Assembly: GCF_013087515.1 (NCBI RefSeq)
Contig: NZ_JABFCN010000003.1
Location: forward strand, 124,001-188,000
Reading direction: 5' to 3'
Origin: Rhizobium sophorae
GTDB lineage: Bacteria; Pseudomonadota; Alphaproteobacteria; Rhizobiales; Rhizobiaceae
Length of the DNA stretch: 64,000 bases
The notes beneath the pieces were generated by a model. It was given only the letters and a program-made list of their open reading frames with translations, was not told the origin of the DNA and searched no databases. This document shows positions 5,146 through 53,688 of this stretch, piece by piece. The position numbers and the translations under genes are program-made. Numbering within the stretch: the stretch's first letter is position 1; each line of letters opens with the position of its first letter.

Positions 5146-5212
5146 CGGTAAGACCTTGCGGAGGACTGTAATCTCCCACACTCAATTGTCGACTTCCATT
5201 GAATAGTATAGC

Positions 5213-7277: not shown

Positions 7278-7302
7278 GGAACAATCTGGACGCTTGCACG
7301 CT
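7278..7302 (+). promoter_or_regulatory. weak EcfG-type promoter candidate
   Basis: GGAAC (7278-7282), 16 nt, then CGCT (7299-7302). The -35 is perfect and the -10 differs from CGTT at one base. It lies 31 nt before the start of the PNPOx-like stress protein. Taken alone this is weak evidence. Confidence 0.3.
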
Positions 7303-9112: not shown

Positions 9113-9137
9113 GGAACTCAGGCAAATTCCGGGCGTT
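9113..9137 (+). promoter_or_regulatory. EcfG-type (general stress) promoter, perfect match
   Basis: GGAAC (9113-9117), 16 nt, CGTT (9134-9137). This is exactly the alphaproteobacterial EcfG/RpoE4-type consensus with allowed spacing. The -10 lies 28 nt before the phospholipase D start at 9166. Confidence 0.65.
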
Positions 9138-11639: not shown

Positions 11640-11666
11640 GGAACGATCAAACGAGTTTTGTGTTCC
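11640..11666. promoter_or_regulatory. overlapping divergent EcfG-type promoters
   Basis: On the minus strand GGAAC (11666-11662), 16 nt, CGTT (11645-11642) is a perfect EcfG consensus, 43 nt before the UPF0104 start. On the plus strand the same DNA reads GGAAC (11640-11644), 16 nt, TGTT (11661-11664), one mismatch, pointing at the EEP phosphatase. Both promoters would occupy the same 27 bp. Confidence 0.6.
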
Positions 11667-12975: not shown

Positions 12976-13055
12976 GATGCGTCTCCAGTTGTTCCTGGCG
13001 ATAGAACGCTCGACGGCTCAGAAGGATGCATCGGCCTCCGCTGCTGCCTTCATCT

Positions 13056-24068: not shown

Positions 24069-24359
24069 CTAGTCGTCGTCGAGCGAGAAGACGGGCCGGT
24101 AGTGACGCGCGGCGATCAGCAAGCTCCGGTCGGGCCGAATGATGTAGATCTCCTCGACCTCGCGTCCCCACTGATCTGTGAAGGTGTGGGGGAAGGAGGA
24201 GCCCACCGGCGATTTCGTCAACTTCGTGCGAGGCTGGCCATTATACGTGATGCTGCCGGGAATGGGCGCCAGTCCTGCCGACGAATAACTGCCTGCGCTG
24301 GTCGTGCAGCCTGTCAGCACAAGCGCAAAAACCAGCCCAAATCCTATGCTCCGCTTCAT
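24069..24359 (-). CDS. small lipoprotein, hypothetical
   Basis: The 96-aa lipoprotein has a clean signal and lipobox (MKRSIGFGLVFALVLTGC, Cys near residue 18), then a short domain (IPGSITYNGQPRTKLTKSP, WGREVEEIYIIRPDRSL). It should be lipidated and held at the inner or outer membrane. The ATG at 24359 follows GGAGGG; the longer frame upstream is discarded. A candidate EcfG promoter (one mismatch) lies 54 nt before the start. Function unknown. Confidence 0.75.
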   Translation of the reverse strand: MKRSIGFGLVFALVLTGCTTSAGSYSSAGLAPIPGSITYNGQPRTKLTKSPVGSSFPHTFTDQWGREVEEIYIIRPDRSLLIAARHYRPVFSLDDD

Positions 24360-24412: not shown

Positions 24413-24437
24413 AACAGGAGACGACAGACATTGTTCC
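24413..24437 (-). promoter_or_regulatory. candidate EcfG-type promoter (one mismatch)
   Basis: On the minus strand GGAAC (24437-24433), 16 nt, TGTT (24416-24413). It points at the lipoprotein gene starting at 24359. The rest of the 24360-24727 gap shows only an opposite-strand GGAAC-N16-CGCT (24486-24510), too far from the next gene to be convincing. Confidence 0.4.
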
Positions 24438-24727: not shown

Positions 24728-25336
24728 ATGCCAGGAGCAGAAACGACATCCTTCAATGCACACCGTCGCGCCGTTTATGAGAATGAATTGGACGAACCGG
24801 AATACTCCTTCGCAGACAACCGATCGGACGGTATTGAAATTCATGCGTTCGGACGCGACTTCGCGCCGGTCGGTACGGACGAAGGTTACGTGCTCCTGAC
24901 CAACGGCATGCGCGATCGGCGCATGACGCTGCCGGCCTCGCACCTGGAAAAGGGCGAGAAGCCCAGAGCCGAACTGATGTGGTACGTGCGGGAGCCGACG
25001 CCCGAAAATATCGTCAATCTGCGCTGGCTCGCCGAACTTCCATTCATGGACGCGACCTGGTTCGGTTTCGGCCATCGGGTGCCGATGCCGACCCCACCGG
25101 TCGAGGGATGCGATTTCAGGACATTTCTCTTTCTCACGCCGATCATAGAAACTGACCAGCGCATCGCGGAAGCACTTATGATCGAGAATGATCCGGTCGA
25201 GATCCTCACGGTGAATTTGATTTCCGATGCGGAGTACCGCTTCATCAAGGAGAAGGGACTGAACCCTTTTCTCGACATGCTGGACGAAGAGGATTATCTG
25301 CCGATATTCGACCCGAAGCGAAAATCCTACCTATAG
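24728..25336 (+). CDS. suppressor-of-fused (SUFU) domain protein
   Basis: The 202-aa protein matches bacterial SUFU-domain proteins. These usually act as immunity or chaperone-like factors in toxin systems, or have unknown roles. Visible motifs are YVLLTNGMRDRRMTLPA, AELMWYVREPTPENI and a C-terminal LDEEDYLPIFDPKRKSYL. The start at 24728 follows GGAG by 11 nt. A longer frame from 24614 would add SRRRFLAM and a weak hydrophobic stretch resembling a Tat signal, but it has no ribosome site. A secreted protein gene begins 9 nt after the stop, so the two may be co-transcribed. Confidence 0.75.
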   Translation: MPGAETTSFNAHRRAVYENELDEPEYSFADNRSDGIEIHAFGRDFAPVGTDEGYVLLTNGMRDRRMTLPASHLEKGEKPRAELMWYVREPTPENIVNLRWLAELPFMDATWFGFGHRVPMPTPPVEGCDFRTFLFLTPIIETDQRIAEALMIENDPVEILTVNLISDAEYRFIKEKGLNPFLDMLDEEDYLPIFDPKRKSYL

Positions 25337-31935: not shown

Positions 31936-31994
31936 TTTGGTCAAGGGAAAGCCTTCGATGAAATTGGGATGCGATTTGGGTAACTTTTGCGGGA

Positions 31995-32021
31995 GCAAAA
32001 AGTTTCGTCCGCAAGCGGACG
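31995..32021 (-). terminator. rho-independent terminator after the 558-aa hybrid kinase
   Basis: On the minus strand CGTCCGC and GCGGACG (32021-32015 and 32012-32006) form a stem with a 2-nt loop, followed by AAACTTTTT. It lies 57 nt after the kinase stop and before treZ, so treZ-malQ probably has its own promoter. Confidence 0.5.
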
Positions 32022-32077
32022 CACGAAAGCGGCCGCTGTCACCAGGATGGCCGCTCGGCATGTTTACGCTTTGATCG

Positions 32078-33754
32078 TCAGGCCGCCGCGACTTTGCCCG
32101 AGAGCGCCTGATCCATGGCCGCCTGAAGCTGTTCCTGCGTGAATGGCTTCTTCATCCGCAGCATCCGGCCGAGGCCGTGATCTTCGGAAAACTCGGCATA
32201 GCCCGAGGCAAGGATGATGGGCAGGCCTGGAAAGGAAGAGCGAAGGTGACGCGCAAGCTCGGCGCCCGTCATGCCCGGCATGGCATGATCGGTGATGACG
32301 AGATCGCAACCCTGCCCATCGGCAAAGAACTCCAAAGCCTGGGAAGCGGAAGACGCTTCCTGCGGCAAGTGCCCGAGATCCTCCAGCATCGCCACGGTTC
32401 CCGTCCTGACAAGGGCATCGTCGTCGACGACCAGAATGGCAAGCGGCCGCGACGCCGGTTTCAAAGGCTCCGTCGCCGGAGGCTCAACGGGAGGCTGCAC
32501 CTTGACGAATGTCTCGGCAACGGGAAGCCACAGGGAAACGGTCGTGCCCTTGCCCCTGACGCTCGATATCTGGATAGAGCCGCCGGATTGCGCCGCCAGA
32601 CCATGAACCATGGACAGCCCTAGACCGGTACCCTTGCCGACCCCCTTGGTGGTGAAAAACGGTTCGGCGGCACGCGAGACCGTTGCCTCGTCCATACCCT
32701 CGCCATCGTCCGACACCGATATCCTGATGTAATTTCCGCCCGCGAGGCCGGCCGGCCGGGCTTCTTCGGCAGCCGCCGCGGCAACCGTCACCGCTCCGCC
32801 GCTTTCGAGCGCATCGCGGGCATTGACGAACAGGTTGAGCAGCGCCAATTCCAGCTGGTTGCTGTCGACCAGGAGGGGTGCCAGATCCACCGGGATGCTT
32901 TTACGGATTTCGATGCGCGGCCCCACCGCCTTGGCGAGAAGATCTTCGACATTTTCAAACAGCCTGAAGAAGTCGACCGCCTGCGGCTTGAGCTCCTGGC
33001 GGCGAGCGAAGGCAAGCAGGCGCTGGGTCAGCGCGGTACCGCGCTCGGCCGCCTGGATCGCGTTCGTCACCAGCCGCTCACTGCGTTCATCGGCCGGAAG
33101 CCGCTTCTTCAGAAGGTTCAGGCTGCCGAGAACCGCCATCAGGAGGTTGTTGAAGTCGTGGGCGACGCCACCCGTCAGGTGGCCGATCGTGTCGAGCTTC
33201 TGCGCCTCGAACAGCTGTGCGAGCGCCTCTTCGCGCTCCCGCGTCCTTTGATCAATTCGGTGCTCGAGTTCCTCGTTGAGCTCACGCAACTGCGCTGCCG
33301 ACGCCTCGAGCTCAGCGGTGCGCTGGCGAACGCGCGCCTCCAGCTCAACGTTCAGGCGTTCGAGCTCCCGCGTCTTTCTGTAGAGATCGGCAAAGACCCG
33401 CACCTTGGCTCTCAGCACCTCGGGGACGATCGGGACGGAGACGTAGTCGACGGCGCCCACCGCATAACCGCGCAGCCGGTCCGGTTCCGCCAGCATCACG
33501 GCGGAAACGAAGATGATCGGCGTGTTCTGATAGCGCGGATGCTGCCGGATCATGCTGACGAGTTCGAACCCATCCTGTTCGGGCATGCAGACATCGACGA
33601 GGATTACCGCGATTTCGGTGCGCAACAAATGTTCGAAGGCTTCGCGAGCGGATTGCGCCTTGATAAGGTTCTCTTCGAGCTCTTCGAGAATGACCTCGTA
33701 ACTCAGGAGTTTTGCCGGTTGGTCGTCGACGAGGAGGATGTTGACGGGGTTCAT
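32078..33754 (-). CDS. hybrid histidine kinase, REC-HisKA-HATPase-REC
   Basis: The 558-aa soluble protein has an N-terminal receiver (phospho-acceptor D54 in ILVDVCMPEQDGF), a coiled coil (about residues 125-185), HisKA with phospho-acceptor H199 (GGVAHDFNN), an HATPase (N311, DDGEGMD, GTGLGLSMVHGL) and a second receiver (D489 in VITDHAMPGM). No membrane or sensor domain is present, so input probably comes through the first receiver, for example from the giant kinase encoded just upstream (10-nt gap). Output may pass to a separate regulator, as the second receiver has no DNA-binding domain. Confidence 0.92.
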   Translation of the reverse strand: MNPVNILLVDDQPAKLLSYEVILEELEENLIKAQSAREAFEHLLRTEIAVILVDVCMPEQDGFELVSMIRQHPRYQNTPIIFVSAVMLAEPDRLRGYAVGAVDYVSVPIVPEVLRAKVRVFADLYRKTRELERLNVELEARVRQRTAELEASAAQLRELNEELEHRIDQRTREREEALAQLFEAQKLDTIGHLTGGVAHDFNNLLMAVLGSLNLLKKRLPADERSERLVTNAIQAAERGTALTQRLLAFARRQELKPQAVDFFRLFENVEDLLAKAVGPRIEIRKSIPVDLAPLLVDSNQLELALLNLFVNARDALESGGAVTVAAAAAEEARPAGLAGGNYIRISVSDDGEGMDEATVSRAAEPFFTTKGVGKGTGLGLSMVHGLAAQSGGSIQISSVRGKGTTVSLWLPVAETFVKVQPPVEPPATEPLKPASRPLAILVVDDDALVRTGTVAMLEDLGHLPQEASSASQALEFFADGQGCDLVITDHAMPGMTGAELARHLRSSFPGLPIILASGYAEFSEDHGLGRMLRMKKPFTQEQLQAAMDQALSGKVAAA

Positions 33755-33764
33755 GGCCAGATCC

Positions 33765-36700
33765 TCAGCGATGCAGCCACATGCGAAGAGCCGATAGCAG
33801 CTGTTCGGTATTGACTGGCTTGGCCAGGTAATCCGAGGCGCCTGCTTCCAGGCATTTCTCGCGGTCGCCCTTCATCGCCTTTGCCGTCAGCGCCAGGATC
33901 GGCAGCCGCCGGAAGCGCGGCTCCGAACGGATGACCTGCATCGTCTCGTAGCCGTCCATTCCGGGCATCATGATATCCATCAGCACGATTGCGACAGAAG
34001 GTTCGTTGTTGATGACGTCAATGGCTTCGCTGCCTGTCGTCGCGGTCAGCACCTTCATGCCCCGGCGTTCGAGGACGCTGCTCAGCGCGAAGATGTTGCG
34101 GGCATCGTCGTCGACGAGCAGCACGGTCTCACCGACCAGATCCTCATCGGAGCTGTGCAGTTCCTGCAACGTCGCCTGTTTCGCGGCCGGCAGGTCGGCG
34201 ACGACCCGATGCAGGAACAGGGCGGTCTCATCCAGCAGGCGCTCGGGCGACTCGACGCCCTTGACCACGACACTGCGGGCCATGCTGTGCAGCGTCGCAT
34301 CTTCCTCGGCGGAAAGCTCCCGGCCAGTGAACACGACCACCGGCACCTCGCCGATCTCGGCATCGTCGCGGATTTGCTCCAGCACGTCGAAGCCGGACAT
34401 GTCGGGAAGCGAAAGGTCGAGCACCACGCAGTCGGCGGCATTCTGCCGAAGAGCGACAAGAGCCTCCGATCCGGAGCCGACACTGGTGATGTCGATGTCG
34501 TCGTGCCCGAGAAGAGCAGTGACGCTCAGACGCTCGGCCTCATTGTCTTCGACGAGCAGCAGATGCTTGCGGCGCGGCTCAGCATAGGCCTTCAATCGCG
34601 CCAACGCCTTGCCGAGCCCTTCCGGCGTCGTCGGCTTGCTCATGAACGCGAAGGCGCCGCGGGTGAGCCCATGCTGGCGATCCTCGTCGAGGCTGATGAT
34701 CTGGACCGGAATATGCCGCGTCTGCGGATTCTGCTTGAGCTGGCTTAGCACCGTCCAGCCGAGCATGTCGGGCAGGAAGATGTCGAGCGAGATCGCCGCC
34801 GGCCTGTAGTCCTGAGCGAGTGCGAGCGCATCGCTGCCGCGCATCGCCACCAGAACCTTGAATCCGTTGTCGCGGGCGAGGTCCACCAGGACGCGGGCGT
34901 AATGCGCATCGTCCTCGACGACGAGCAGCACCGAGTCGCCGGCCGTTATCTGGTGGCGATCGTCTTCGACATGTTCGATGGTCTTCTCGGCGCGGCGGTT
35001 TGCTGCCGCCTCGGCGAATTCCACGACATTTGCCGGCGGAACGGACTTTGGCGCAACCGCGCCGGCGCCGACATAGGTGAGCGGCAGGTAGAGGACGAAG
35101 GTACTGCCGACCCCGGGAGTGCTGCGCAGCTGGATCTCGCCGCCCAAGAGGTTCGCCAATTCGCGGCTGATCGCCAGGCCGAGGCCAGTGCCGCCATATT
35201 TGCGGCTTGTCGAGGCATCCGCCTGCTGGAACGCCTCGAAAATGATGCGCTGCTTTTCAGGCGGGATGCCGATGCCGGTATCGACGACTTCGAAGGCGAT
35301 CACCGAAGGCGCGTGCCTGAGCGAGGGATGATCGGACGACCAGCCGCTCGTCGCCGAGGCAACGCGAAGCGTCACGCCGCCCTGCGCGGTGAACTTGAAG
35401 GCATTCGACAGCAGGTTCTTGAGGATCTGCTGCAGTCGCTTCGAATCCGTGATGAGGCTCTTTGCGACATCGGCGCCGACCTCGACTGCGAACGACAGGC
35501 TCCGGTTTTCTGCCTCGTGCCGAAATGGCCGCGCCATCATCTCAAGCAGGTTGCTGACGAAGATCTCTTCGGCATCGACCGAAACCGTTCCGGACTCGAT
35601 CTTCGACAGGTCGAGGATGTCGCTGATGAGGTTCAGGAGATCGGTTCCCGCGCCGTGGATCGTCTTGGCGAACTCGACCTGTTTTCCAGACAGGTTGCCA
35701 TCCGGATTTTCTCCCAGCTGCTGGCCGAGGATGAGGATCGAATTCAGCGGCGTGCGCAGCTCATGCGACATGTTGGCGAGGAATTCGGATTTGTACTTCG
35801 ATGTGAGCGCGAGCTCGGTTGCCTTTTCCTCCAGCGCGCGCCGGGCCTGTTCGATCTCCTGGTTCTTCGCCTCGACTTCGACGTTGCGTTCCTCCAGCTG
35901 CTGCGCCTTCTGCCCGAGCTGCTCGTTGGTCTGCTGCAGTTCGCGCTGCTGCGTCTGAAGCTCGGCGGCGAGCTGCTGGGACTGCTTGAGCAGGCCTTCG
36001 GTCTGCATGGTCGCTTCGATCGAGTTGAGGACAATGCCGATGGATGTCGTCAGTTGGTCGAGGAAAGACAATTGCAGTTCGGTGAATTCGCCTACCGAAG
36101 CAAGCTCGATTACCGCCTTCACCTGCCCCTCGAAATGCACCGGCAGCACGATGGCGCTTCTCGGCAGGGTCGTGAACACGCCGGAGCTTATCGGAACGAC
36201 GTTATCGGGAAGGTCGGTGACCAGGATTCGGCGGGCGTCGCTGGCGCACTGGCCGACAAGTCCCTGGCCGAATTCGAGCCGGGCCGGATGCGCCGCCTCG
36301 CCGCCTTTCGCGTAGACCGAGAGCAACGACAAGACCGGCTGCCGCTCGTCGGCATCCACCTGGTAGATGACCCCCTGATGCGCGCCGACCAGCGGCGCCA
36401 GCTCCGACAGTAGCATCTTGCCGACCAGCGTCAGGTCGCGCTGTCCCTGCAGCATGTTGGTGAAGCGCGCCAGGTTGGTCTTCAGCCAGTCTTGCTCGGT
36501 GTTGCGCTCGGTGGTGAGCCGGAGGTTGTCGATCATCGTGTTGATGTTGTCCTTGAGCTCGGCCACTTCGCCGCGCGCGTCGACCTTGATCGAGCGCGTC
36601 AGATCGCCCTTGGTGACGGCGGTCGCCACCTCGGCGATGGCGCGCACCTGTGTCGTCAGGTTGGCGGCAAGCAGGTTGACGTTGCCGGTCAAATCCTTCC

Positions 36701-39700
36701 AGGTTCCCGCGGTACCCGGAACGTTCGCCTGACCGCCGAGGCGGCCTTCCACGCCCACCTCGCGTGCCACCGTGGTCACCTGGTCGGCAAAGGTCGCGAG
36801 TGTGTTGGTCATGTTGTTGATGGTTTCGGCAAGAGCGGCCACCTCGCCCTTGGATGCGACGGTGAGATTCTGCTTGAGGTCGCCGTTCGCCACCGCCGTC
36901 ACCACCTTGACGATGCCGCGGACCTGCTCGGTCAGGTTGGCGGCCATGACGTTGACGGTGTCGGTCAGGTCCTTCCAGGTGCCGGCGACACCGGGCACCT
37001 GCGCCTGGCCGCCGAGCTTGCCTTCGGTGCCGACTTCGCGGGCAACACGCGTCACTTCGCCGGCAAAGGCATTGAGCTGGTCCACCATCGTATTGATGGT
37101 GTTCTTCAATTCAAGGATCTCGCCCTTCACGTCGACGGTGATCTTGCGCGACAGGTCGCCGCGCGCCACGGCCGTCGTCACCTCGGCAATGTTTCGAACC
37201 TGGGTCGTCAGATTGGCGGCAAGCAGGTTGACGTTGTCGGTCAGGTCCTTCCAGGTGCCGGCGACGCCGGGAACGACCGCCTGACCGCCGAGCCTGCCAT
37301 CGGTGCCGACTTCACGGGCCACACGCGTCACCTCGCCGGCAAAGGAGCGAAGCTGATCGACCATGGTGTTCAAAGTATCCTTCAGCAACAGGATTTCGCC
37401 GCGCACGTCGACGGTGATCTTGCGCGACAGGTCGCCGTTGGCGATCGCGGTCGCCACTTCGGCGATGTTGCGCACCTGCGCCGTCAGGTTGCCGGCCATG
37501 GAATTGACGCTGTCGGTCAGATCCTTCCAGGTGCCGGCGACGCCGGAGACCTGCGCCTGGCCGCCGAGCTTGCCTTCGGTGCCGACTTCGCGGGCGACAC
37601 GCGTCACCTCGCCGGCAAAGGCGTTCAACTGATCAACCATCGTGTTGATGGTGTTCTTCAGTTCGAGAATTTCGCCCTTCACATCGACGGTGATCTTGCG
37701 CGACAGGTCGCCGCGCGCCACGGCCGTCGTGACTTCGGCGATGTTTCTGACCTGGCCGGTGAGGTTGGAGGCCATGGAATTGACGTTTTCGGTCAGGTCC
37801 TTCCAGGTGCCGGCGACACCCGGCACCTGCGCCTGGCCGCCGAGCTTGCCTTCGGTGCCGACCTCGCGGGCGACGCGCGTCACTTCCGAGGCGAACCGGT
37901 TCAGCTGATCGACCATGGTGTTCAGCGTTTCCTTGAGCTCGAGGATTTCACCCGAGACCGACACCGTGATTTTCTTCGACAGGTCGCCATTGGCGATTGC
38001 GGTCGAGACTTCGGCGATGTTGCGCACCTGCGCCGTCAGATTGCCGGCCATGGAATTGACGCTGTCGGTCAGGTCCTTCCAGGTGCCGGCGACGCCGAGC
38101 ACGTTCGCCTGGCCGCCGAGCCGCCCTTCCGTGCCGACCTCGCGCGCCACGCGCGTCACCTCGCCGGCAAAGCCGTTGAGCTGATCGACCATCGTGTTGA
38201 TGGTCTCCTTCAGTTCGAGGATTTCCCCCGACACGGTGACGGTAATCTTCTTGGACAGGTCTCCCTGGGCCACGGCGGTCGCGACCTCGGCGATGTTGCG
38301 CACCTGCCCGGTCAGGTTGGAAGCCATGGAGTTGACGCTGTCGGTCAAATCCTTCCAGGTGCCGGCGACGCCGCGCACATTGGCCTGGCCGCCGAGCCGG
38401 CCCTCCGTGCCCACTTCGCGGGCGACGCGGGTCACTTCCGAAGCGAAGGCATTCAGCTGGTCCACCATCGTATTGATGGTTTCCTTCAATTCGAGGATCT
38501 CGCCCTTCACGTCGACGGTGATCTTCTTCGACAGGTCGCCATTGGCAATCGCAGTCGAGACCTCCGCGATATTGCGCACCTGCGCCGTCAGGTTGCCGCC
38601 CATGGAGTTGACGTTCTCGGTCAGATCCTTCCAGGTGCCGGCGACGCCGCGCACATTGGCCTGACCGCCGAGCCGTCCCTCCGTGCCCACTTCGCGAGCG
38701 ACGCGGGTGACTTCTGAAGCGAAGGCATTTAGCTGATCGACCATCGTATTGATGGTCTCCTTCAGCTCGAGGATTTCCCCCGACACCGTCACGGTGATCT
38801 TCTTCGACAGGTCACCATTGGCGATCGCAGTCGAGACCTCGGCGATGTTGCGCACCTGCGCGGTGAGGTTCGAGGCCATGGAATTGACGTTGTCGGTGAG
38901 GTCCTTCCAGGTGCCTGCCACGCCGGGCACCTGCGCCTGTCCGCCGAGCCGACCTTCGGTGCCGACTTCGCGCGCCACGCGCGTCACCTCACCGGCAAAG
39001 CCGTTCAGCTGGTCGACCATCGTGTTGATGGTTTCCTTGAGCTCCAGGATTTCGCCGGAGACGTCGACGGTGATCTTGCGCGACAGGTCGCCGCGCGCCA
39101 CGGCCGTCGTCACCTGAGCGATGTTGCGGACCTGGGCGGTCAGGTTGCCGCACATGGCGTTGACGCTGTCGGTCAGGTCCTTCCAGGTGCCGGCTACGCC
39201 CGGCACCAGCGCCTGTCCGCCAAGCTTGCCTTCGGTGCCGACTTCGCGGGCGACACGGGTCACTTCCGAGGCGAAGGACCTGAGCTGGTCGACCATGGTG
39301 TTGATCGCCTCCTTCAGCTGCAGGATCTCGCCGCGCACGTCGACGGTGATCTTCTTGGAAAGATCGCCATTCGCAACGGCGATCGTCACTTCCGCGATGT
39401 TGCGCACCTGCGCCGTCAGGTTCGACGCCATCGAGTTCACGCTTTCGGTGAGATCCTTCCAGACACCCGTCACCTCCGGCACCTGCGCCTGGCCGCCGAG
39501 TTTTCCGTCGGTGCCGACCTCGCGGGCGACGCGTGTCACTTCCGATGTGAAGACGCTCAGCTGCTTGATCATCGTGTTGACGATGTCGGCCGAGCGCAGG
39601 AACTCGCCCTTTAGCGGCCGCCCGTCGACATCCAGCGGCACGGTCTGCAAGAGATCTCCCTTAGCGACGGCCGTGATCGTGCGCGTGACGGCGGTCGTCG

Positions 39701-40064
39701 GCCATAGGAGATCGTCGATCAGACCGTTGATCGATCCTTCCATTTCGGACCAGGAGCCGTCCGACAGGCCGAAGCGTACGCGTGTGCTCGTTCGCCCGTC
39801 CCGGCCGACCACCTGCCCGACATGCTCGAGCTGCTGGGCCATGCGCTGATTGGCGGCGATGATGTCGTTGAGGGCATCGGCGACCTTGCCGGTGAGACCC
39901 GTCAGGTCGGACCGCATCCGTACGGAAAAGTCGCCGCGTCTGACCGAGACAAGGACTTCCAGAAGCGCGCTGGCGTCGTCGAATGCCATCGTTTTGTGGT
40001 CATGCCCATTGAGGCTGTCTATCGCAACGCTGTCGCGCGCGAATTCGCTGGTTTGGTTGCTCAC
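33765..40064 (-). CDS. giant soluble hybrid histidine kinase with HAMP-repeat array, GAF and three receivers
   Basis: The 2099-aa protein starts at GTG 40064 (GGGGGA upstream). Order: N-terminal HAMP-like segments (1-180), eleven near-identical 92-residue HAMP-pair repeats (181-1192), GAF (about 1200-1340), coiled coil, HisKA (H1434, [12 protein letters not shown]), HATPase ([20 protein letters not shown]), then three receivers with acceptors D1761, D1883 and D2030. No membrane span is seen. The plan matches fungal group III (Nik1/Os1) and related bacterial HAMP-array kinases, which sense osmotic stress. The 558-aa kinase follows by 10 nt, and treZ-malQ lies beyond. A link to trehalose or osmoadaptation is an attractive inference. 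Confidence 0.93.
36489..39524 (-). repeat. eleven tandem 276-bp repeats encoding HAMP pairs
   Basis: Eleven in-frame 276-bp units fill this span exactly (11 x 276 = 3036 nt). Each encodes a 92-residue unit beginning REVGT[ED]G[KR]LGGQA and ending EVTRVA. Units differ by a few residues and share blocks in mosaic fashion, for example units 7 and 10 in the [20 protein letters not shown] stretch, suggesting gene conversion or unequal crossing-over. Confidence 0.95.
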
Positions 40065-40234: not shown

Positions 40235-40260
40235 GGAACACTTTGCTGCCGGCTGTCGTT
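40235..40260 (+). promoter_or_regulatory. EcfG-type (general stress) promoter, perfect match
   Basis: GGAAC (40235-40239), 17 nt, CGTT (40257-40260), ending 24 nt before the start of the 150-aa gene. The spacing and both hexamers match the EcfG/RpoE4 consensus. Confidence 0.65.
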
Positions 40261-40284
40261 TCCATCCAGACAATGGAGAGCGAC

Positions 40285-40737
40285 ATGTCGAACGTCTCAA
40301 GGACAGGCAAGGAAGAGATCAACAACGCGACCAGCCCGACCACCTTCGGAAAGTCGGTCGAGAGCCAGGCGCAAATTGAGGATGCGGCGGCGCAAGCGTC
40401 GCCCGGCGCTGGCGGCGAGATGCTCAACATCTACCGGTTGGAGCCGATCGCCGCACCCGACGATCCGAGATGGGACAATTCCCCCGGACATGGTACCGTC
40501 GTCGTCGCCGCGAGAACGCCAGGCGATGCCAGGATCGTCGCCGCGGCGCGCGAACTTGACTTCATGGAAGTCGACGCAGCGCCCGCCGAGGATGTGACGA
40601 CAGTCAATGCCAGCGCCTTCCGCGACGACAAGCTTTACACCGTGATCGAAATCGATCGGAACAGACGTGATATAAAGCGCGGCATCCTCGACGGTACGGT
40701 CTCCGTCGACACGATCCGGCCGGTCGAACCGGACTAG
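40285..40737 (+). CDS. hypothetical protein, stress-promoter associated
   Basis: The 150-aa soluble protein has a polar, probably disordered N-terminus followed by a compact domain (LNIYRLEPIAAPDDPRWDNS, GTVVVAARTPGDARIVAAARELDFMEVD, SAFRDDKLYTVIEIDR). No family recognised, although the second half looks like a small alpha/beta unit. The ATG at 40285 follows GGAGAG. It has its own predicted EcfG promoter, so general-stress induction is likely. The next gene begins 27 nt downstream. Confidence 0.7.
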   Translation: MSNVSRTGKEEINNATSPTTFGKSVESQAQIEDAAAQASPGAGGEMLNIYRLEPIAAPDDPRWDNSPGHGTVVVAARTPGDARIVAAARELDFMEVDAAPAEDVTTVNASAFRDDKLYTVIEIDRNRRDIKRGILDGTVSVDTIRPVEPD

Positions 40738-40764: not shown

Positions 40765-41046
40765 ATGAATACCGCCAATCTGCAGCTCAAGGGCCTGATC
40801 ATGGCGATGGCCTCGATATGTGATGCGATCGTCGATAAGCAACTGCTCACGCGCGAGGAGATCGACGCTGCGCTCTCGAAGGCTCAAGAGGCGATCGAGG
40901 AGGATGACGACCACGAGCTGTCAGGCGCCAACCGGGCGGCGATCCTGTTTCCGATCCGCGTGCTGCAGCTTGCCAGCGAAGCCGGTCGGAAGGGTGAAGG
41001 GGCCACGTTTTCAGACTATGCCAAGCGTGTGGGGAAGCTCAGCTGA
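40765..41046 (+). CDS. small conserved hypothetical protein
   Basis: The 93-aa helical protein (LKGLIMAMASICDAIVDKQL, TREEIDAALSKAQEAIEEDD) ends in AKRVGKLS, with no membrane segment. It resembles short cytoplasmic proteins of rhizobia of unknown function. GGGAG is 7 nt upstream. It ends 2 nt before the hydrolase start and probably shares the EcfG-promoted transcript. Confidence 0.65.
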   Translation: MNTANLQLKGLIMAMASICDAIVDKQLLTREEIDAALSKAQEAIEEDDDHELSGANRAAILFPIRVLQLASEAGRKGEGATFSDYAKRVGKLS

Positions 41047-44928: not shown

Positions 44929-47139
44929 TCAGCGTGACGGCCCCTTCAGAAAAATCGTCGATAGCGGCGGCAGTGTCAGCGACAGGGAGACGGGCCTGCC
45001 GTGGGCGGGCACGGGTTCAGTCGACACCGCGCCGTTGACCAGGCCCGAGCCGCCATATTCCCGCGCGTCCGTCGTCATCCGCTCGATCCAGACACCGTCG
45101 CTGGGCACACCGATCCTGTAGCCGTAACGCGGCACCGGCGTGAAATTCGACATGACCAGCACCGACGAAGCGCGATTGGGCGCATAACGGAGCATCCCGA
45201 GGACGGAATTGACGGCGTCGTCGGCGGCCGCCCATTCGAAGCCCTCGGGATGAAAGTCGCCGAACTGCAATGCCGGCTCGTCCGCGTAGAGGCCGTTCAG
45301 ATCCTTCACCAGCCGCTGAATCCCCACATGCTGAGGCCGGTCCAGCACATCCCAGCTCACCGAACCATCATGGTTCCACTCGCCCGGCTGTGCGACTTCG
45401 CTCCCCATGAACAACAGTTTCTTGCCGGGATGACCCCACATGAAGGCGAGATAGCTGCGCAGATTGGCAAATTTCTGCCATTCGTCACCCGGCATCTTCG
45501 TCAGCAGCGAGCCCTTTCCATAGACGACCTCGTCATGTGAGATCGGCAGAATGAAGCGTTCGGAATAGGCATAGATCATTCCGAAGGTCATCGTGCCATG
45601 GGCGTAGCTCCGGTAAATCGGATCCTTCTCGATGTAGCTCAGGCTGTCATGCATCCAGCCCATGTTCCATTTGATGTCGAAGCCCAGCCCCCCTTGCTCC
45701 GGTGGCTTCGTCACCCCGGGCCAGGCCGTCGATTCCTCGGCGATGGTTATCGCGTGCGGGCAGCGCTCATGAATGATGCTGTTCAGGTGCTTGAAGAATT
45801 CGACAGATTCCAGATTTTCCCGGCCGCCATATTGGTTGGGAATCCATTCGCCCTCGTTGCGGCTGTAGTCGCGGTAAAGCATCGAGGCAACGGCATCGAC
45901 CCGCAACCCGTCGATATGGTAGCGCTCCAGCCATTCCAGCGCGCTGGCGATCAGGAACCCTTTCACCTCGTTGCGGCCGAGATTGTAGATCAGCGTGTTC
46001 CAGTCGCGGTGAAAGCCTTCGCGCGGATCTTCGTGTTCGTAGAGCGCGCTGCCGTCAAAGCGGGCAAGCCCCCAGACGTCTGTGGGAAAATGGGCCGGTA
46101 CCCAGTCGAGGATGACGCCGACCCCGGCGCCATGGCACCGGTCGATGAAATAGGCGAAGTCCTCAGGCGTCCCATATCGGCCAGTGGGAGCGAACAGGCC
46201 GAGCGGCTGATAGCCCCAGGACCCGCCGAACGGATGCTCCATGATCGGAAGCAGCTCGATATGGGTAAAGCCCATGTCGCTGACATAGGGAACCAGCCGC
46301 TGGCTGAGTTCGACCCAGTCGAGCGACCTGTTGCCGTCTTTTTGATCGCGAAGCCAGGAGCCGGCGTGTACCTCATAGACGGAGAACGCGCCCTCGAGCC
46401 TGTCTTGTCGGGACCGGCCCTTCATCCAGCGGTCATCATTCCATCGGAAGGGCGTCGACGATGCGACGATGGAGGCGGTGGACGGAGCGGCCTCGCTCGC
46501 CCTCGCGACCGGATCGGCCTTCTGCGGCAGGCAGGTCCCGTGCGCATCGATGATCTCGAACTTGTATCTTTCGCCGGGGGCCAGCCGGGGGATAAACAGC
46601 TCCCAGACCCCCGCCGACTGTCTCAGCCGCATCGGGTTTCGTCGCCCATCCCAGGCGTTGAAGTCGCCGACGACCGAGACGCGGCGCGCATTTGGAGCCC
46701 ACACGGCGAAACGAACGCCCGATATCCCGTCGATCGACATCGCCACCGCGCCGAGCGTCCGGCTCAGACTATAGTGAGTACCCTCCGATATCAGATGCAG
46801 ATCTAGCTCTCCGAGCAGCAGACCGAAACTGTAGGGGTCCTCGGTGATTTGGACCGCATCGGGCCATGTGATCCGCAGCCGGTATCCCGTCCTAGAGGCG
46901 GCCGCCGCGGCAAACAGGCCGGACGGGTGGGCGATACTGAACGGCGTCACCACCCGGCCGCTTGTCGTATCGATGAGATCGACCGCTTCGGCGCCAGGCA
47001 GGTATACCCGCACGATCGTCATGCCGCCGCTTTCGTGAGGACCCAGGATCGAAAAGGGATCGCCGTGGCGGCCCTCTATCAGAGCCCAAAGCGCATCCTG
47101 TCCAATGCCTGCGAGAAGTTCCATGCGTTCAACATTCAT
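44929..47139 (-). CDS. glgB: 1,4-alpha-glucan branching enzyme (GH13_9)
   Basis: The 736-aa enzyme introduces alpha-1,6 branches. It has an N-terminal CBM48-like region and a TIM barrel with catalytic residues D415 ([16 protein letters not shown]), E468 (IAEEST) and D536 ([12 protein letters not shown]). The spacings 53 and 68 equal those of E. coli GlgB. The ATG at 47139 overlaps the treS-maltokinase stop by 4 nt. It is the last gene of the glgE operon, so it probably branches the glucan made by GlgE as well as glycogen. Confidence 0.96.
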
Positions 47140-50100
47140 GCCGTTACCCCCGCTAAGCGCGATGCGATTTCGGTAAGGCCGGCGAGCGGGATCGGCAGCC
47201 ACTTCGGCCTGTTGCGCGCTTCGTAGGCGATTTCATAGGCAGCCTTTTCGAGAAGAAAGGCATCGAGGACCCTCCGTCGTTGGTCGGGCGGCATAGCGAG
47301 CGCCTTCGATGCGGCGACCTCCTGCCAATAGGCATTGAGAAAGGCTTCCTCGGCACCGCGCCCGAAGCGGGCGATGGCGTCCCGTCGCACCTCATTCTCG
47401 TGTTCGGTAACCGCGTCATTGTCGAGCTGCGCGGTGGCGACGAGATAGTTCAGTGATCTTAAAAGCCCGGCGACGTCGCGGAGCGGAACGGTCTTGGCTC
47501 GACGCTCGGCGAGATTTTTTGCGGGCTCGCCTTCGAAGTCGATGATGACGGCATCGCCTTCGCTGACCAGAATCTGGCCAAGATGGAAATCGCCATGCGT
47601 ACGCGTCATCAACATGCCGCGAGTGCTCTCCGCCAGGCTTGCGCCAAGCTCGACGAGTTCGGCGCGGCGCTCCAAAAGCGGGTGAGCGAGCAGATCGACC
47701 GCGGGATCGGCATTTTCCTCGCGTTCGGCAAGCTTCGACATCGCATAGGCGATTTCGCCCGCCACCGCCTTCTTGATAGCCTTGACCTCGCCGTCGCCGG
47801 CGATGAGAGGGTTGAACGCCTCGTCCGCGCTCTCCCCCGCGAGGACAACATGCAATTCGCCGAGCCTCAGGCCCACCATTCCAACGAAGCTGATCAGTGA
47901 CTGGAAGACATCATCACCTGGTTCCACCGCCGGATCGTTCATCACGAGCTCGTCGGCCGCGCGGCGCAGATTGCTCAACATCCAGTTCCAGGCGTCGCCC
48001 TGATTGCGAATGGCGCCCTGAACGATGATCAAAGTCGAGCGACGCCCGGTGGAATCAGTGTGCGCCACCTCGCCAAGCAGCGGCGCGGTGTGGTCGTAAC
48101 CGGCGCTGGTGAGAAACCGTGTCATCTCGACTTCCGGATGGACGCCGGGGAAAATATGTCTGATTAGCTTGATCATTGCGACGTCACCGACGATCATCGA
48201 GCTGTTGGATTGTTCGGCTGAAAGCCAACGGACTGGCATATCGTCGGTGATATTAAGCCGGTCGAGCCGCTCGGTGCCGAGGAATTCGAGCGTGCCGGTA
48301 CGCCCGGTTATGCTGGAACGGTCGGCAAGCCCGCGCAGGACGCCGCGCGCCATCGGCTCTACGGCAAACCCGTCCGTCAGGAAGCCGACCCGCTTGCCGT
48401 GGCGAATCCGCCCGAGCGCAAGCTGCTGCGTCAAAGCAGAGGGTTGCGCATCGTCCCACGCGACCGCGAGCGGCAGCTGATAGGATTCGGTATGATCCGG
48501 CAGCACCGCTTCCAATTCGCCGAGAACGACACCATCTGCAAAGGGGATCGGTGTTGCCGAGATCAGCCGCGCCGCCTGGAGCGGCTGGTCCTTCGCCCCG
48601 AACCAGCGGCGCCTGGCGAGGTAAGCCGGCAGAATTTCGTTGCTGAGGACGCGTCCCAGCCGCGGCTCATCGACGAGATCGAGCAGGCCGCGGCGAATGA
48701 CCATCGTCGTGAGGTCGGGCAATTGCTCGGGCGGCGCGGTGCGCCATGCCGGCGGATCGGCATCGGCCTCCAGCTGGAACCAGAAGAAGCCGTAGGGCGG
48801 CAATGTCAGGAGATAGGTCAGCTGCCCGATCGGCGGAAAGGGCGACATACCGGTCAGCTCGATCGGCACATGGCCCTCGAAAGCCGAGAGGTCGAGCTCG
48901 ACTGCCTGAGGCAACCGGGAAAGGTTTGCGACGCACATCAGCGTCTCGCCGTCATATTCCCTCAGATAAGCGAGAATCTTTCGGTTCTCAGGCGAGAGGA
49001 AACGCAACGAGCCGCGCCCGAAGGCCGGATGCCTGCCGCGCAGCGCCAGCATCTTGCGCGTCCAGTTGAGCAGAGAATGGGCATCAGTGCTTTGGGCCTC
49101 GACGTTGACCGCCTCGTAACCGTATAGCGGATCGGCAATCAGCGGGAGGACGAGACGAGCCGGGTCCGTGCGTGAGAAGCCGCCATTGCGGTCCGGCGAC
49201 CATTGCATCGGCGTCCGCACCCCGTCCCGGTCGCCGAGATAGATGTTGTCGCCCATGCCGATCTCGTCGCCGTAATAGATGACAGGTGTTCCGGGCATCG
49301 AGAGCAGAAGCGCGTTCATCAGTTCGATGCGCCGGCGGTCGCGCTCCATTAACGGCGCCAGCCGCCGCCTGATGCCGAGGTTGATGCGGGCGCGTTTGTC
49401 CGATGCATAGGTCTCCCAGAGATAGTCCCGCTCGGCGTCGGTCACCATTTCGAGGGTCAGCTCGTCGTGATTGCGCAGGAAGATCGCCCATTGGCAATTC
49501 TCGGGGATTTCGGGCGTCTGGCGCAGGATGTCGGTAATCGGGAACCGATCTTCCTTGGCGATCGCCATATACATGCGTGGCATCAGCGGGAAATGGAAGG
49601 CCATATGGCATTCGTCGCCCTCACCGAAATATTCGCGCGTGTCCTCTGGCCATTGATTAGCCTCGGCAAGCAGCATCACGCCGGGATGAGTGGCGTCGAG
49701 GGCGGCGCGGATCCGTTTGAGGATCGCATGGGTCTCGGGAAGATTTTCGTTGATCGTTCCCTCGCGCTCGACAAGGTAGGGAATGGCGTCGAGACGGAAC
49801 CCGTCGATACCGGTTTCCAGCCAGAAGCGCATCACCTTCAGCAGTTCCTCCATGACGAGAGGACTGTCGAAATTAAGATCGGGCTGGTGGGAATAGAAGC
49901 GGTGCCAATAATAGGCGCCGGCAACGGCATCCCACGTCCAGTTGGATTTTTCCGTGTCGAGGAAGATGATGCGGGTTTCAGGAAATTTCTGGTCGCTGTC
50001 CGACCAGACGTAGAAGTCGCGCTCCGGCGACCCCACCGGGGCTTGGCGCGCGCGCTGGAACCAGGGATGCTGGTCGGAGGTATGGTTGATGACGAGCTCG

Positions 50101-50417
50101 ATGATGACGCGGATATTGCGCTGATGGGCGGCGTCGACGAAAGCCCGGAAATCCTCCATCGTCCCGTAGTCGGGGCTGACATTGCCGTAATCGGCAATGT
50201 CGTAACCGTCGTCTCGGCGCGGTGAGGGAAAGAAGGGCAGCAGCCAGATGGCGTTGACGCCGAGGGCTGCGATGTGATCGAGCTTCTGGTGCAGGCCGGC
50301 GAAATCGCCGACCCCGTCACCATTGGCGTCGTAGAACGACTTGATGTGCAGCTGGTAGATGATAGCGTCTTTGTACCAGAGCGGCTGGTTCATACCATCA
50401 GGATTCAACGTGTCCAT
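47136..50417 (-). CDS. treS: trehalose synthase fused to maltokinase (TreS-Mak/Pep2)
   Basis: This 1093-aa bifunctional protein has two parts. Residues 1 to about 560 are TreS, which interconverts trehalose and maltose (D210 in [11 protein letters not shown]252 in LLAEANQ, D318 in [11 protein letters not shown]). The C-terminal part is a maltokinase with an eukaryotic-kinase-like fold ([23 protein letters not shown]) that makes maltose-1-phosphate. The fusion passes maltose directly to the kinase and feeds GlgE, encoded directly upstream; the stop and start touch (TGAATG). It is central to the GlgE route and removes trehalose for glucan storage. Confidence 0.95.
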
Positions 50418-53400
50418 TCATGCCTCCGCTACGCGAACGCGCCAGATGGCAAAGGGCAGGATCTGAGGGTTGAAGCTCACTCTCTGCCACTTGCCATTCC
50501 ATCTGAACCGATGCCCAGTGACCAGATCTTCGGCGTCGAGCGCTCCGCCGTCTCCGAGCGACCACTTCCAGAGCGGCAGCTCGACGTCGCTTTCCTGAAA
50601 GTTGTGTGGATCGAGACTGATGGCGATCAACAAAACATTGTCGCGGGCGCGGCTCGCCTTCTCGAAGAACAAAATGTTGTCGTTCGCGGCGTTTAGCAGC
50701 GTTAGCCCGAGATGCGAATGCAGGGCAAGATTTTCGTTCCGGATGCGGTTGAGCATCCTGATCTCGGCGATGATATTGCCTGGACGGTCGTAATCCCAGG
50801 CGCGGATCTCATACTTCTCGCTGTCGGCATATTCCTTGCGCTTGGCATCGGGACGCCCTTCGCAAAGTTCGAAGCCGTTATAGACGCCCCACAATCCGGA
50901 AAGCGTGGCAGCAAGTGCTGCGCGGATCAGGAAGGCCGGGCGCGGGGCGTTCTGCAGGAAATCCGGATTGATATCATGCGTGTTGACGAAGAAATGCGGA
51001 CGGAAGAATTCCTTCGGCGCCGTTTCTGTCAGCTCCCGCATATATTGCTCAAGTTCCCACTTGGCATTGCGCCAGGTGAAGTAGGTGTAGGACTGGGAGA
51101 AGCCGATCTTCGCCAAGCGATACATCACCTTCGGCTTGGTGAAGGCTTCCGACAGGAAGACGACATCGGGATGACGGGCCCTGATATCACCGATCAGCCA
51201 TTCCCAGAACGGAAAGGGCTTTGTGTGCGGATTGTCGACGCGAAACAGCTTGACGCCCTGGTCCACCCAAAGCTGGACGACATCCCTGAGCTCCACCCAT
51301 AGTGAAGGCAGCGCATCTTTTGTGTAGAAATCGACGTTGACGATGTCCTCGTATTTCTTCGGCGGGTTTTCGGCATATTTGATCGTGCCGTCGGGACGCC
51401 AGTCGAACCAGCCGGGATGCTCCTTCAGCCAAGGGTGATCCGGCGACGCCTGGATCGCGAGGTCGAGAGCGATCTCCAAGCCATGCCGCCCTGCCGCCTC
51501 GACCAGCCGCCGGAAATCCTCGAACTCGCCGAGCTCGGGATGGATGGCGTCATGGCCGCCGTCCTCGGAGCCGATGGCATAGGGGCTTCCGGGGTCGTCG
51601 GGCGCGGCTTTCAGGCTGTTGTTGCGGCCTTTCCGGTTGGTCGAACCGATCGGATGAATCGGCGGGAAATAGAGCACGTCGAAGCCCATGTCACGGATGG
51701 CGGGCAGTCGAGGAATGACGTCCTCGAACGTGCCGTGCCGGTCCGGATCGCCGCTCTGCGAGCGCGGGAAGATCTGGTACCAGCTGGCAAAGGCAGCCTC
51801 CTTGCGTTCGGCATCGACGGCGCTTGCCGTCGAGCGAAGCCGAAACGGCCGCCTGTCCGCCTTGTTCATCAATTCAGATGTTCCGGCATCGAGCAGGATC
51901 GCCGTACGCTCGGCATCTGAGGCGCTTTCGAGATTGGCGAGCAGCGCCTTTAATTCGGCGCGGAGCGTGTCACCTGCATGGATCTCGGCCGAACGGACGA
52001 GCTCTATCCCCTCCTGGAGCTCAAGCTTCAGATCCAGCCTGGCATCGTTCTTCTTCATCAGTTCGTAGCGAAAAATCGCAAACGGGTTCTTCCATGCCTC
52101 GACGGCAAACTCATAGCGTCCGACCCGTTCCAATAGGAATTCGGTGCGCCAGCGGTCATTCTCGACCAATTGCATCTCCGTCTCGTTCCAGTCCGCCGCA
52201 TCGAGCGGCCGCCAGAGCAGGACCGCGGCGATCGGGTCGTGGCCGTCGGCGAATATATCCGCCTCCACGGTGACGATGTCGCCGACCACCCGCTTCACGG
52301 GAAAGCGCCCGTCATCGACCCGCGGCATGATGCGCTCGATCGCGAGGCGCGGCGAAGCGACCGCCTGCTCGACATCGAGGATCGGCCGCGATGTGATCGG
52401 AGCCGGCGCCTTGCATTCGACCACCAGGGTCTCCCCTGCCCGCAGTCGCAGAGCCGTACCGTCGGCTGCGGCGGGAAGAAAACCGGAGGCCGCTTCACGC
52501 AGTGCGGTTACCGGAGCGGGCGCACTTTTCCGAAGGTCCCTGTTGAGCAGGATGAACCGCACATTCTCGGCGCCGCGAAGGTCTTCCGCCGCCGATTGCA
52601 GCAGCGCAGAGACAGGTCCATTGGCGTTGCGGATGAGCCGAAGCGAGGCAAGCGCAGAGGGAGCCTTGCCGACCTCGGTGTTCGCAAGGCGAATTTCGGA
52701 GGAGATATCGAAAGCGAGGTCATGACGCAGCCCCCGCAAACCCGTTCCGTTCCCATGGGTCGGATCAAGCGGCGCGGCTGCGCCATATTCGAAGCCCATC
52801 GGAACCATCAGGCCGCCGCCGAGCGAGGCAGCTAGGCGTAGCGCCCTTATGGCGCGCCGTTCAACGATTTCGCGGCTCTCGGTTCCGTGCGCGATCCGCC
52901 TGGCGAATGGCGGCTCCGGAAAAGCGATCTGCCAGCCAAGCTGCTTCTGGACGCGGTGTTCTTCGACGAACCATCTCTCGTCAAAATCCCACCAGGCCAT
53001 CGATGAAAAACATCCATCAAAGCCTGTATTCTTGACCGCGACTCTGGCTCCAAAATCAGTGCCGGGCGTCCAGGCGAAGAATTGCGCGTCCGCCTTCTCG
53101 CGCACCGCCGCAATCAGCGCTTTGAAAACCGCCGGCGCAATGCGATCGATCCCGAGGGTCCGGTAGCCGGAGAGGCCGAGACCGGCAAGTTCTTGCAACC
53201 GTTCTGTCCACTCTTCCAACAGCCGGGACTCCGCCTCCATCGCGATCATCGGCTCTGCCGGATCCAATGGTGAGCGTCTTGGGTCGACGGGGCGAAAGCC
53301 CGCCTCGGAATTCTGGGCCTTGCCGTCGAGCATCAGGTCCATCATCAAGGCGACGCCGCTCTTGCGGGCAGCCTCCGCCAGGCGTCCCACCCCGTCCTCG

Positions 53401-53633
53401 ATTGCGCTTCCGAGCGACAGTTGAGGATCAAGGCGATTTAGATCCTGGGATGCAAAGATACTGCGCTCCCCGCCCCGATCGAAGAGAGGTGCCGTCAGCA
53501 CGCGGTCGAAACCGGTATCCGCCGCATGGTCGAAAACCTCGCGCCACGCATCGATACCCTGAAGTAGGAGTGGATTGACATAATAGATCCGGGGTGGGGT
53601 GCTCAACACACCCTGGTTCGCAGAGAATAACAT
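50418..53633 (-). CDS. glgE: alpha-1,4-glucan:maltose-1-phosphate maltosyltransferase with extra N-terminal domain
   Basis: The protein is 1071 aa, about 400 residues longer than Streptomyces GlgE. The C-terminal part from about residue 405 is standard: a DUF3416 beta domain (VEADIFADGHDPIAAVLLWR) and a barrel with D800 (LFRVDNPHTKPF), E829 (FLSEAFTKPK) and D887 (NTHDINPDFL). The spacings 29 and 58 match known GlgE (29 and 57). Residues 1-400 resemble a degenerate GH13 barrel (NPLLLQGIDAWREVFDHAAD) without obvious catalytic acids. It transfers maltose from maltose-1-phosphate to glucan. It is the first gene of the operon; ATG 53633 follows GAGG. Confidence 0.93.
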   Translation of the reverse strand: MLFSANQGVLSTPPRIYYVNPLLLQGIDAWREVFDHAADTGFDRVLTAPLFDRGGERSIFASQDLNRLDPQLSLGSAIEDGVGRLAEAARKSGVALMMDLMLDGKAQNSEAGFRPVDPRRSPLDPAEPMIAMEAESRLLEEWTERLQELAGLGLSGYRTLGIDRIAPAVFKALIAAVREKADAQFFAWTPGTDFGARVAVKNTGFDGCFSSMAWWDFDERWFVEEHRVQKQLGWQIAFPEPPFARRIAHGTESREIVERRAIRALRLAASLGGGLMVPMGFEYGAAAPLDPTHGNGTGLRGLRHDLAFDISSEIRLANTEVGKAPSALASLRLIRNANGPVSALLQSAAEDLRGAENVRFILLNRDLRKSAPAPVTALREAASGFLPAAADGTALRLRAGETLVVECKAPAPITSRPILDVEQAVASPRLAIERIMPRVDDGRFPVKRVVGDIVTVEADIFADGHDPIAAVLLWRPLDAADWNETEMQLVENDRWRTEFLLERVGRYEFAVEAWKNPFAIFRYELMKKNDARLDLKLELQEGIELVRSAEIHAGDTLRAELKALLANLESASDAERTAILLDAGTSELMNKADRRPFRLRSTASAVDAERKEAAFASWYQIFPRSQSGDPDRHGTFEDVIPRLPAIRDMGFDVLYFPPIHPIGSTNRKGRNNSLKAAPDDPGSPYAIGSEDGGHDAIHPELGEFEDFRRLVEAAGRHGLEIALDLAIQASPDHPWLKEHPGWFDWRPDGTIKYAENPPKKYEDIVNVDFYTKDALPSLWVELRDVVQLWVDQGVKLFRVDNPHTKPFPFWEWLIGDIRARHPDVVFLSEAFTKPKVMYRLAKIGFSQSYTYFTWRNAKWELEQYMRELTETAPKEFFRPHFFVNTHDINPDFLQNAPRPAFLIRAALAATLSGLWGVYNGFELCEGRPDAKRKEYADSEKYEIRAWDYDRPGNIIAEIRMLNRIRNENLALHSHLGLTLLNAANDNILFFEKASRARDNVLLIAISLDPHNFQESDVELPLWKWSLGDGGALDAEDLVTGHRFRWNGKWQRVSFNPQILPFAIWRVRVAEA

Positions 53634-53663: not shown

Positions 53664-53688
53664 AACTTTTCTTGGCGGCGGTTGTTCC
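53664..53688 (-). promoter_or_regulatory. candidate EcfG-type promoter for the glgE operon
   Basis: On the minus strand GGAAC (53688-53684), 16 nt, AGTT (53667-53664), 31 nt before glgE. The -10 has one mismatch. Position and spacing suit general-stress control of the glgE-treS-glgB operon. Confidence 0.45.

Follow-up and report, generated by a model that had tools for sequence, protein, structure and literature searches.

In Rhizobium etli, the available portion of PMC3892343 gives GGAAC-N16-CGTT as the EcfG1 motif, reports that ecfG1 is autoregulated, and describes a second EcfG whose targets are partly separate. EcfG is freed when PhyR antagonizes NepR, according to the accessible part of PMC8092242, in which treS and ots are placed under EcfG in Bradyrhizobium diazoefficiens. 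Up to 14 different -10 boxes are reported for EcfG of Sphingopyxis (PMC7083833), and the Sphingomonas motif is written as GGAAC-N17-20-GTT, with a treY-malQ-treZ-glgX trehalose/glycogen cluster under EcfG in Sphingomonas melonis (PMC6599016). Bidirectional promoters built on one shared -10 element have also been described: their start sites usually lie 18 bp apart (PMC10268837, partial text), polymerase occupies them in one orientation at a time, and competition between the two directions was not apparent at basal activity, arising once one direction had been strengthened (PMC12825309, partial text). In Salmonella, ybhP, clsB, and ybhN form an operon, and ClsB contributes to stationary-phase cardiolipin, as described in the available text of PMC9241728.

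The window, i.e., the whole 64,000-nt stretch analysed here (G000:C23:124001-188000), belongs to a genome of 7.5 Mb in 88 contigs and, over most of its length, shows synteny with plasmid pRL12 of Rhizobium johnstonii 3841, the annotation of which has a matching arrangement of phospholipase D (PLD)-like, LPG-synthase-domain (UPF0104), endonuclease/exonuclease/phosphatase-family (EEP), small hypothetical, glgE, treS, and glgB genes. An earlier note on this DNA had claimed three perfect EcfG-type sites (GGAAC-N16/17-CGTT) and several one-mismatch sites in the window. All three perfect sites are indeed there, at 9113-9137 (+), 11666-11642 (-), and 40235-40260 (+), as are the near-matches before glgE, the small lipoprotein gene, and the PNPOx-like gene, each with one mismatch in the -10 box. 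The sites and genes concerned are as follows.

7278-7302, plus strand: EcfG-like site GGAAC-N16-CGCT, 31 nt 5′ of the PNPOx-like gene; same site in 3 of 3 relatives with the gene (7 examined)
7334-7783, plus strand: PNPOx-like protein, 149 aa (PF16242, 107 bits; cut-off 28.8)
9113-9137, plus strand: perfect EcfG site GGAAC-N16-CGTT, 28 nt 5′ of the PLD-like gene
9166-10689, plus strand: phospholipase D-like protein, 507 aa (PF13091 and PF00614 over cut-off, two stretches each)
10636-11598, minus strand: UPF0104/LPG-synthase-TM membrane protein, 320 aa (PF03706, 36.5 bits; cut-off 33.4)
11640-11666, both strands: shared palindromic element GGAACG-N15-TGTTCC, between UPF0104 and EEP
11717-12445, plus strand: EEP protein, 242 aa (PF03372, 86.2 bits)
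12469-12975, minus strand: 168-aa gene, 3′ of the weak candidate site
13005-13029, minus strand: weak candidate site GCATC-N16-CGTT with two mismatches, 29 nt 5′ of the 168-aa gene
24069-24359, minus strand: small lipoprotein gene, 96 aa, protein starting MKRSIGFGLVFALVLTGC
24413-24437, minus strand: EcfG-like site GGAAC-N16-TGTT, 53 nt 5′ of the lipoprotein gene; kept in 6 of 7 relatives
40235-40260, plus strand: perfect EcfG site GGAAC-N17-CGTT, 5′ of the 154-aa gene
40273-40737, plus strand: 154-aa protein (150 aa from the ATG at 40285), function unassigned, without Pfam or NCBIfam match
40765-41046, plus strand: 93-aa protein, after a 27-nt gap from the 154-aa gene
44929-47139, minus strand: glgB (PF22019 and other branching-enzyme domains; glgB in the pRL12 annotation)
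47136-50417, minus strand: treS with maltokinase domain (TIGR02456, 942.7 bits, and TIGR02457, 508.3 bits, over cut-off)
50418-53633, minus strand: glgE (PF11896, 174.6 bits; annotated in pRL12)
53664-53688, minus strand: EcfG-like site GGAAC-N16-AGTT, 30 nt 5′ of glgE

The window sites have a GGAAC -35 box and a CGTT-like -10 box at a spacing of 16-17, lie 12-53 nt before a start in the orientation of the gene, and are conserved before orthologues, on the basis of three relatives for PNPOx and weakly for the 168-aa gene. The GlgE/TreS-maltokinase route is recognizable from the N/S domain of GlgE and from TreS and maltokinase models over cut-off. A PLD domain and active-site motifs place the 507-aa protein in the PLD superfamily, and only this superfamily is claimed: cardiolipin synthase models score far below cut-off, and assignment as a ClsB-type cardiolipin synthase was rejected (NF008427, 31.7 bits; cut-off 281). 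The UPF0104 protein reaches 191 bits with the MprF model, below the cut-off of 600.

The genome encodes PhyR, NepR, and EcfG. Its one NepR is over the Pfam cut-off (PF18557) and below that of NCBIfam (26.8 of 100 bits); beside it lies PhyR (NF006623, 394.6 bits; cut-off 240), along with a sigma factor of the EcfG type (NF009169, 396.2 bits; cut-off 321). The stretch upstream of nepR-ecfG (approximately 4900-5300 of locus L122, G000:C68:58000-68000) yielded no GGAAC-N16/17-NGTT site, unlike what the autoregulation of ecfG1 in R. etli would suggest. Twelve weaker EcfG matches are present in the genome, the best being 40% and 36% identical, and the reader of the window sites could therefore be a paralogue. 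That an EcfG paralogue or a different ECF sigma factor, instead of canonical EcfG, serves the sites would parallel the second EcfG of R. etli with its partly separate targets; however, the motif found here matches that of R. etli EcfG1 (both as given in the available part of PMC3892343), and a perfect site lies 46 nt before phyR. This alternative is regarded as unlikely, and the window sites are, from their sequence, very probably EcfG promoters.

The earlier note had proposed a check for motif enrichment; raw counts proved to be at control level, and it is position and conservation that stand above controls. The three perfect sites of the window compare with 0.97 expected, at least three being obtained in 8 of 100 shuffles; in the whole genome, 135 perfect matches stand against 144 for the reversed motif, with no bulk excess. 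Raw motif counts, being at the control level in both window and genome, were dropped as evidence. These counts are what favors reading the sites as chance matches, a reading opposed by both position and conservation. For the position test, the surroundings of all 135 genome matches were compared with those of 39 of the 144 reversed-motif matches (those in 30 loci plus contig C23). A match was called promoter-like when a start lay within 250 nt and it was not deep inside a gene, as judged by a crude codon-usage gene finder, with the same rule for controls. Intergenic positions were found for 78 of the 135 real matches and 10 of the 39 control matches (Fisher P 5e-4), and promoter-like positions, just before a start, for 65/135 and 3/39, respectively (Fisher P 1.6e-6); for 44 of the 65 promoter-like genome sites, the distance to the start is 21-59 nt. 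The earlier note had named an equal frequency within coding sequence as counting against its proposal; this was not found, and about half of the genome's perfect matches, including the three in the window, behave as promoters. The window holds 3 of the 65 promoter-like sites against 0.55 expected (P 0.019 if the window is taken as chosen beforehand). When 65 sites were placed at random, 1998 of 2000 placements gave some 64-kb stretch with at least three, so the suggestion of a special cluster in this window is not supported.

Conservation within the window was assessed from orthologue upstream regions of six relatives and pRL12, for the 31 genes with at least three relatives. Conserved perfect sites precede three of these genes, and sites with at most one mismatch precede seven, compared to means of 0.001 and 0.06 (maxima 1 and 2) for 1000 permuted motifs. 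The seven genes are those for PNPOx, PLD, UPF0104, EEP, the lipoprotein, the 154-aa protein, and GlgE, and their sites amount to six elements, because UPF0104 and EEP have one element in common; in the same comparison, no site of at most one mismatch was present upstream of treZ-malQ. At the PLD, 154-aa, glgE, and UPF0104 sites, the boxes are kept while the spacers diverge and the spacing flips between 16 and 17. Chance is contradicted for the sites of PLD, UPF0104, the 154-aa gene, and glgE, and may still account for those of PNPOx (three relatives only) and the 168-aa gene; as an account of the window sites in general it is hardly credible.

Individual promoters were followed in the best 30 loci per gene, own genome included, after a search of 80 relatives that found the 154-aa gene in 41, a PLD match in 39, and a glgE match in 32. 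Of the 30 PLD loci, 28 carry a perfect site and two carry none, the site lying up to 180 nt before the aligned start in more distant loci. Among the best 80 of 226 UPF0104 loci from GTDB genomes, 79 have a PLD match, and the perfect PLD site is present in 64 and absent in 15 of these. A gene-finder call that put the PLD site inside a divergent gene was ruled out: the pRL12 annotation and the sequence place the start of that gene at ~9050, and the PLD site is therefore intergenic. For the 154-aa gene, the site is perfect in 25 of 30 loci and has GGAAC with AGTT or TGTT in the other five. The earlier note was right about this perfect site, with a correction as to its distance from the start: the first ATG, at 40273, is 12 nt from the site and the second, at 40285, is 24 nt from it, the latter probably being the true start because several relatives lack the first ATG. 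The best plasmid matches of the 154-aa protein are in Rhizobium, mostly in the R. leguminosarum group, and the same strand and short gap suggest that the 93-aa gene is probably in one transcript with it.

Upstream of glgE, GGAAC-N16/17-NGTT occurs in 29 of 30 loci (L092-L121), with a -10 box of AGTT in 20, GGTT in 8, and CGTT in 1. Given the flexible -10 boxes of EcfG promoters, TGTT, GGTT, and AGTT are plausible. The glgE -10 box stays non-consensus, as though a weaker -10 were selected. The 168-aa gene is preceded by GGATC-N16-CGTT at 28-29 nt in 3 of 6 relatives with the gene, and some members of the clade seem to have a decayed -35 box (GCATC here); with a weak, decayed site only, it was rejected as a clear target. 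S. meliloti SMb20705, reported as RpoE2-dependent by 5′ RACE, was set aside, its identity being without basis. At the sequence level, there is good support for the proposal of the earlier note, namely, EcfG-type promoters and a single general-stress regulon that includes both membrane-lipid-type genes and the GlgE route.

Several neighboring features were recorded in addition. Divergent from the 154-aa gene with its EcfG site is a gene for a hybrid histidine kinase of 2099 aa (33765-40064, minus strand) that contains GAF, 11 HAMP stretches, and three receiver stretches; next comes a receiver/kinase protein of 558 aa (32078-33754, minus strand). Across the seven relatives compared, the 2099-aa kinase shows 97-99% identity, more than most of its neighbors do; a link to stress signaling is only a guess, and no paper on a poly-HAMP histidine kinase in Rhizobium was found in the open-access literature searched. 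An inverted repeat, GAAACTTTTTG...CAAAAGTTAC or nearly so, is conserved before treZ (31936-32077, minus strand) in the own genome and seven relatives and is possibly an operator. A SUFU-domain protein (24728-25336, plus strand; PF05076, 83.8 bits) has no match in the syntenic stretches of seven relatives compared.

The near-match claimed before the EEP gene exists but is not an independent site, being the other face of the UPF0104 element. The UPF0104-EEP gap holds GGAACGATCAAACGAGTTTTGTGTTCC at 11640-11666. On the minus strand, a -35 box at 11666-11662 and the -10 box CGTT at 11645-11642 form GGAAC-N16-CGTT, directed toward UPF0104 at 43 nt; on the plus strand, a -35 box at 11640-11644 and the -10 box TGTT at 11661-11664 form GGAAC-N16-TGTT, directed toward EEP at 52 nt. 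Each -35 box overlaps the opposite strand's -10 box by three bases, and one palindrome can hold both predicted promoters, GGAACG being the reverse complement of CGTTCC.

Of the 30 PLD loci, one was left out for a flank without UPF0104; the other 29, from the own genome and 28 relatives, all contain GGAACG...GTTCC. In addition, GTDB genomes yielded 226 UPF0104 relatives, the best 80 of which were kept; these come mostly from Rhizobium and Sinorhizobium/Ensifer, with other Rhizobiales too, and single loci are titled Agrobacterium, Metarhizobium, Xaviernesmea, and Ferranicluibacter. Among these best 80 of 226, a single perfect UPF0104-side site lies within 260 nt in every locus, EEP is divergent from UPF0104 in 78, and 53 distinct spacers occur, with a spacing of 16 in 49 loci and 17 in 31. 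The dinucleotide CC, which completes the EEP-side -35 box, follows CGTT in 79 of the 80. The 80 loci are related by descent, so that a Fisher value for CC cannot be read as a probability, and the fair comparison is with the PLD sites of the same loci, where CC follows CGTT in 1 of 64. Among this genome's promoter-like sites, the count is 8 of 65, and the bases after the -10 box vary at the glgE and 154-aa sites. The CC contrast speaks for two directions because a one-way EcfG promoter needs no CC.

The same contrast counts against the reading that the UPF0104 site is an ordinary one-way EcfG promoter, its symmetry incidental and the EEP promoter elsewhere. So do the gene content and the size of the gap. 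The only one of the 80 loci without CC, L368, has a sulfatase gene (PF00884) in the place of EEP and no EEP match. L339 counts the other way, having CC although no EEP match was found there; its element is identical to the one in the EEP-bearing locus L337, consistent with a possible recent loss of EEP from L339. (An ORF beside UPF0104 in L339 had been taken by its look for the end of a glucanotransferase, an identity dropped when Pfam gave no match.) In 41 of 78 loci, no more than 100 nt (minimum 70) separate UPF0104 from EEP, which leaves little room for another EEP promoter. In favor of a one-way promoter, the EEP-side -10 box is never CGTT in the best 80 of 226 loci: the UPF0104 side has A (49 loci), C (26), or T (5) as its base 6, so that the consensus C does not occur in the EEP-side box. 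Palindromes of this kind are, furthermore, not a general class. The exact palindrome is present in 222 of 397 genomes of the order, the own genome having 1 against 3 for the reversed control, and no excess over the reversed control was seen across the 397 genomes (per-genome table judged by eye, not summed). In this genome, near-palindromes account for 11 of the 65 promoter-like matches and are no commoner there than in coding sequence, with 16 of 56; at other intergenic positions, they account for 1 of 14. Two-way EcfG promoters as a general class were rejected on both grounds, and the UPF0104/EEP element is, by its sequence record, a particular case. A second perfect palindrome of this genome, GGAACG-N16-CGTTCC (G000:C40:187301-187328, L204), lies between S49-peptidase and Nramp genes and likewise fits one-way use: of 30 loci, 8 have it in recognizable form, 7 have a perfect Nramp side, and only 2 have a perfect peptidase side. 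On this evidence, a one-way promoter with incidental symmetry is a rather improbable account of the UPF0104/EEP element, if the most serious one to weigh.

Since the element is a perfect inverted repeat, GGAAC-N17/18-GTTCC, it could also serve chiefly as an operator, its GGAAC half-sites being bound by a dimeric transcription factor. Against this, the spacing takes just the two EcfG values (16 and 17, in the best 80 of 226 loci), the asymmetry has the same sense in all 80, with CGTT on the UPF0104 side and never on the EEP side, and the sequence facing UPF0104 matches the EcfG promoter perfectly, at a distance typical of promoters. An operator is thus a very improbable main function.

The best explanation, held with good though not full confidence, is that the sites are promoters read by EcfG polymerase, with two-way docking at 11640-11666. 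In this mechanism, which we infer as regards the reader, the activity in two directions, the competition, the relative strengths, and the operon limits, PhyR would act under stress to release EcfG from the anti-sigma factor NepR, and the EcfG holoenzyme would transcribe the PLD-like gene, the 154-aa/93-aa pair, and a presumed glgE-treS-glgB operon; the lipoprotein and PNPOx-like genes may be targets too, less certainly. At 11640-11666, the holoenzyme would dock either way round, one orientation leading to UPF0104 and the other to EEP. The palindrome would be occupied in one orientation at a time, so that the two genes would be induced together and may compete, the UPF0104 side probably being the stronger for its consensus -10 box, CGTT. 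The fuller proposition, that this 27-28 bp palindrome of two opposed, box-swapping EcfG promoters has been selected across several Rhizobiaceae genera and co-induces UPF0104 and EEP as mutually exclusive transcripts under general stress, is favored on balance, with less assurance.

What was a list of motif matches becomes a part of the general stress regulon of rhizobia that is well supported and open to testing, and that connects the GlgE/TreS glucan route with membrane-lipid-type proteins. The UPF0104/EEP element is a natural, long-conserved candidate two-way promoter that would rely on box swapping instead of a shared -10. It offers a sharp prediction, namely, that two bases should uncouple one gene from the other, and a clean system for studying the choice of polymerase orientation under an alternative sigma factor. 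In the open-access literature searched, no EcfG or ECF promoter of such a two-way kind was evident, and no paper was found that ties EcfG to a cardiolipin synthase in the general stress response, or that combines EcfG with at least two of GlgE, UPF0104, phospholipase D, maltosyltransferase, and the general stress response.

EcfG promoters as such are ordinary. The closest described ones, the EcfG (ECF15) promoters of the close relative R. etli (PMC3892343, available part), have the same GGAAC-N16-CGTT motif and PhyR-NepR-EcfG control; here, in contrast, N17 spacing and AGTT, GGTT, and TGTT -10 boxes are conserved as well. As in the Bradyrhizobium and Sphingomonas examples (PMC8092242 and PMC6599016, as excerpted), trehalose and alpha-glucan enzymes appear to fall under the general stress response, whereas the predicted target here is glgE-treS-glgB, with a conserved non-consensus -10 box. 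By sequence, glgE thus adds a new case to a theme already known. The membrane-lipid-type genes have a counterpart of their own. We take ybhP, clsB, and ybhN of Salmonella to belong to the EEP, PLD, and UPF0104 families, respectively. EEP-, PLD-, and UPF0104-type genes adjoin one another there as well (PMC9241728, available text), but as an operon, whereas here they form three apparent transcription units, two of them on one putative two-way promoter. The novelty is the swapped -35/-10 geometry of that two-way element. Like the symmetric -10 bidirectional promoters (PMC12825309 and PMC10268837, in their accessible parts), it is one pseudo-symmetrical element that would serve two polymerase orientations and divergent transcripts. 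Those promoters use one shared -10 on both strands; in the UPF0104/EEP element, the shared bases instead join each -35 box to the opposite -10 box, the boxes being swapped between strands, with an alternative sigma factor as the predicted reader, and the two start sites should lie further apart, at about 40 bp. The element therefore looks like a two-way stress promoter with a geometry unlike that of the published shared -10 type.
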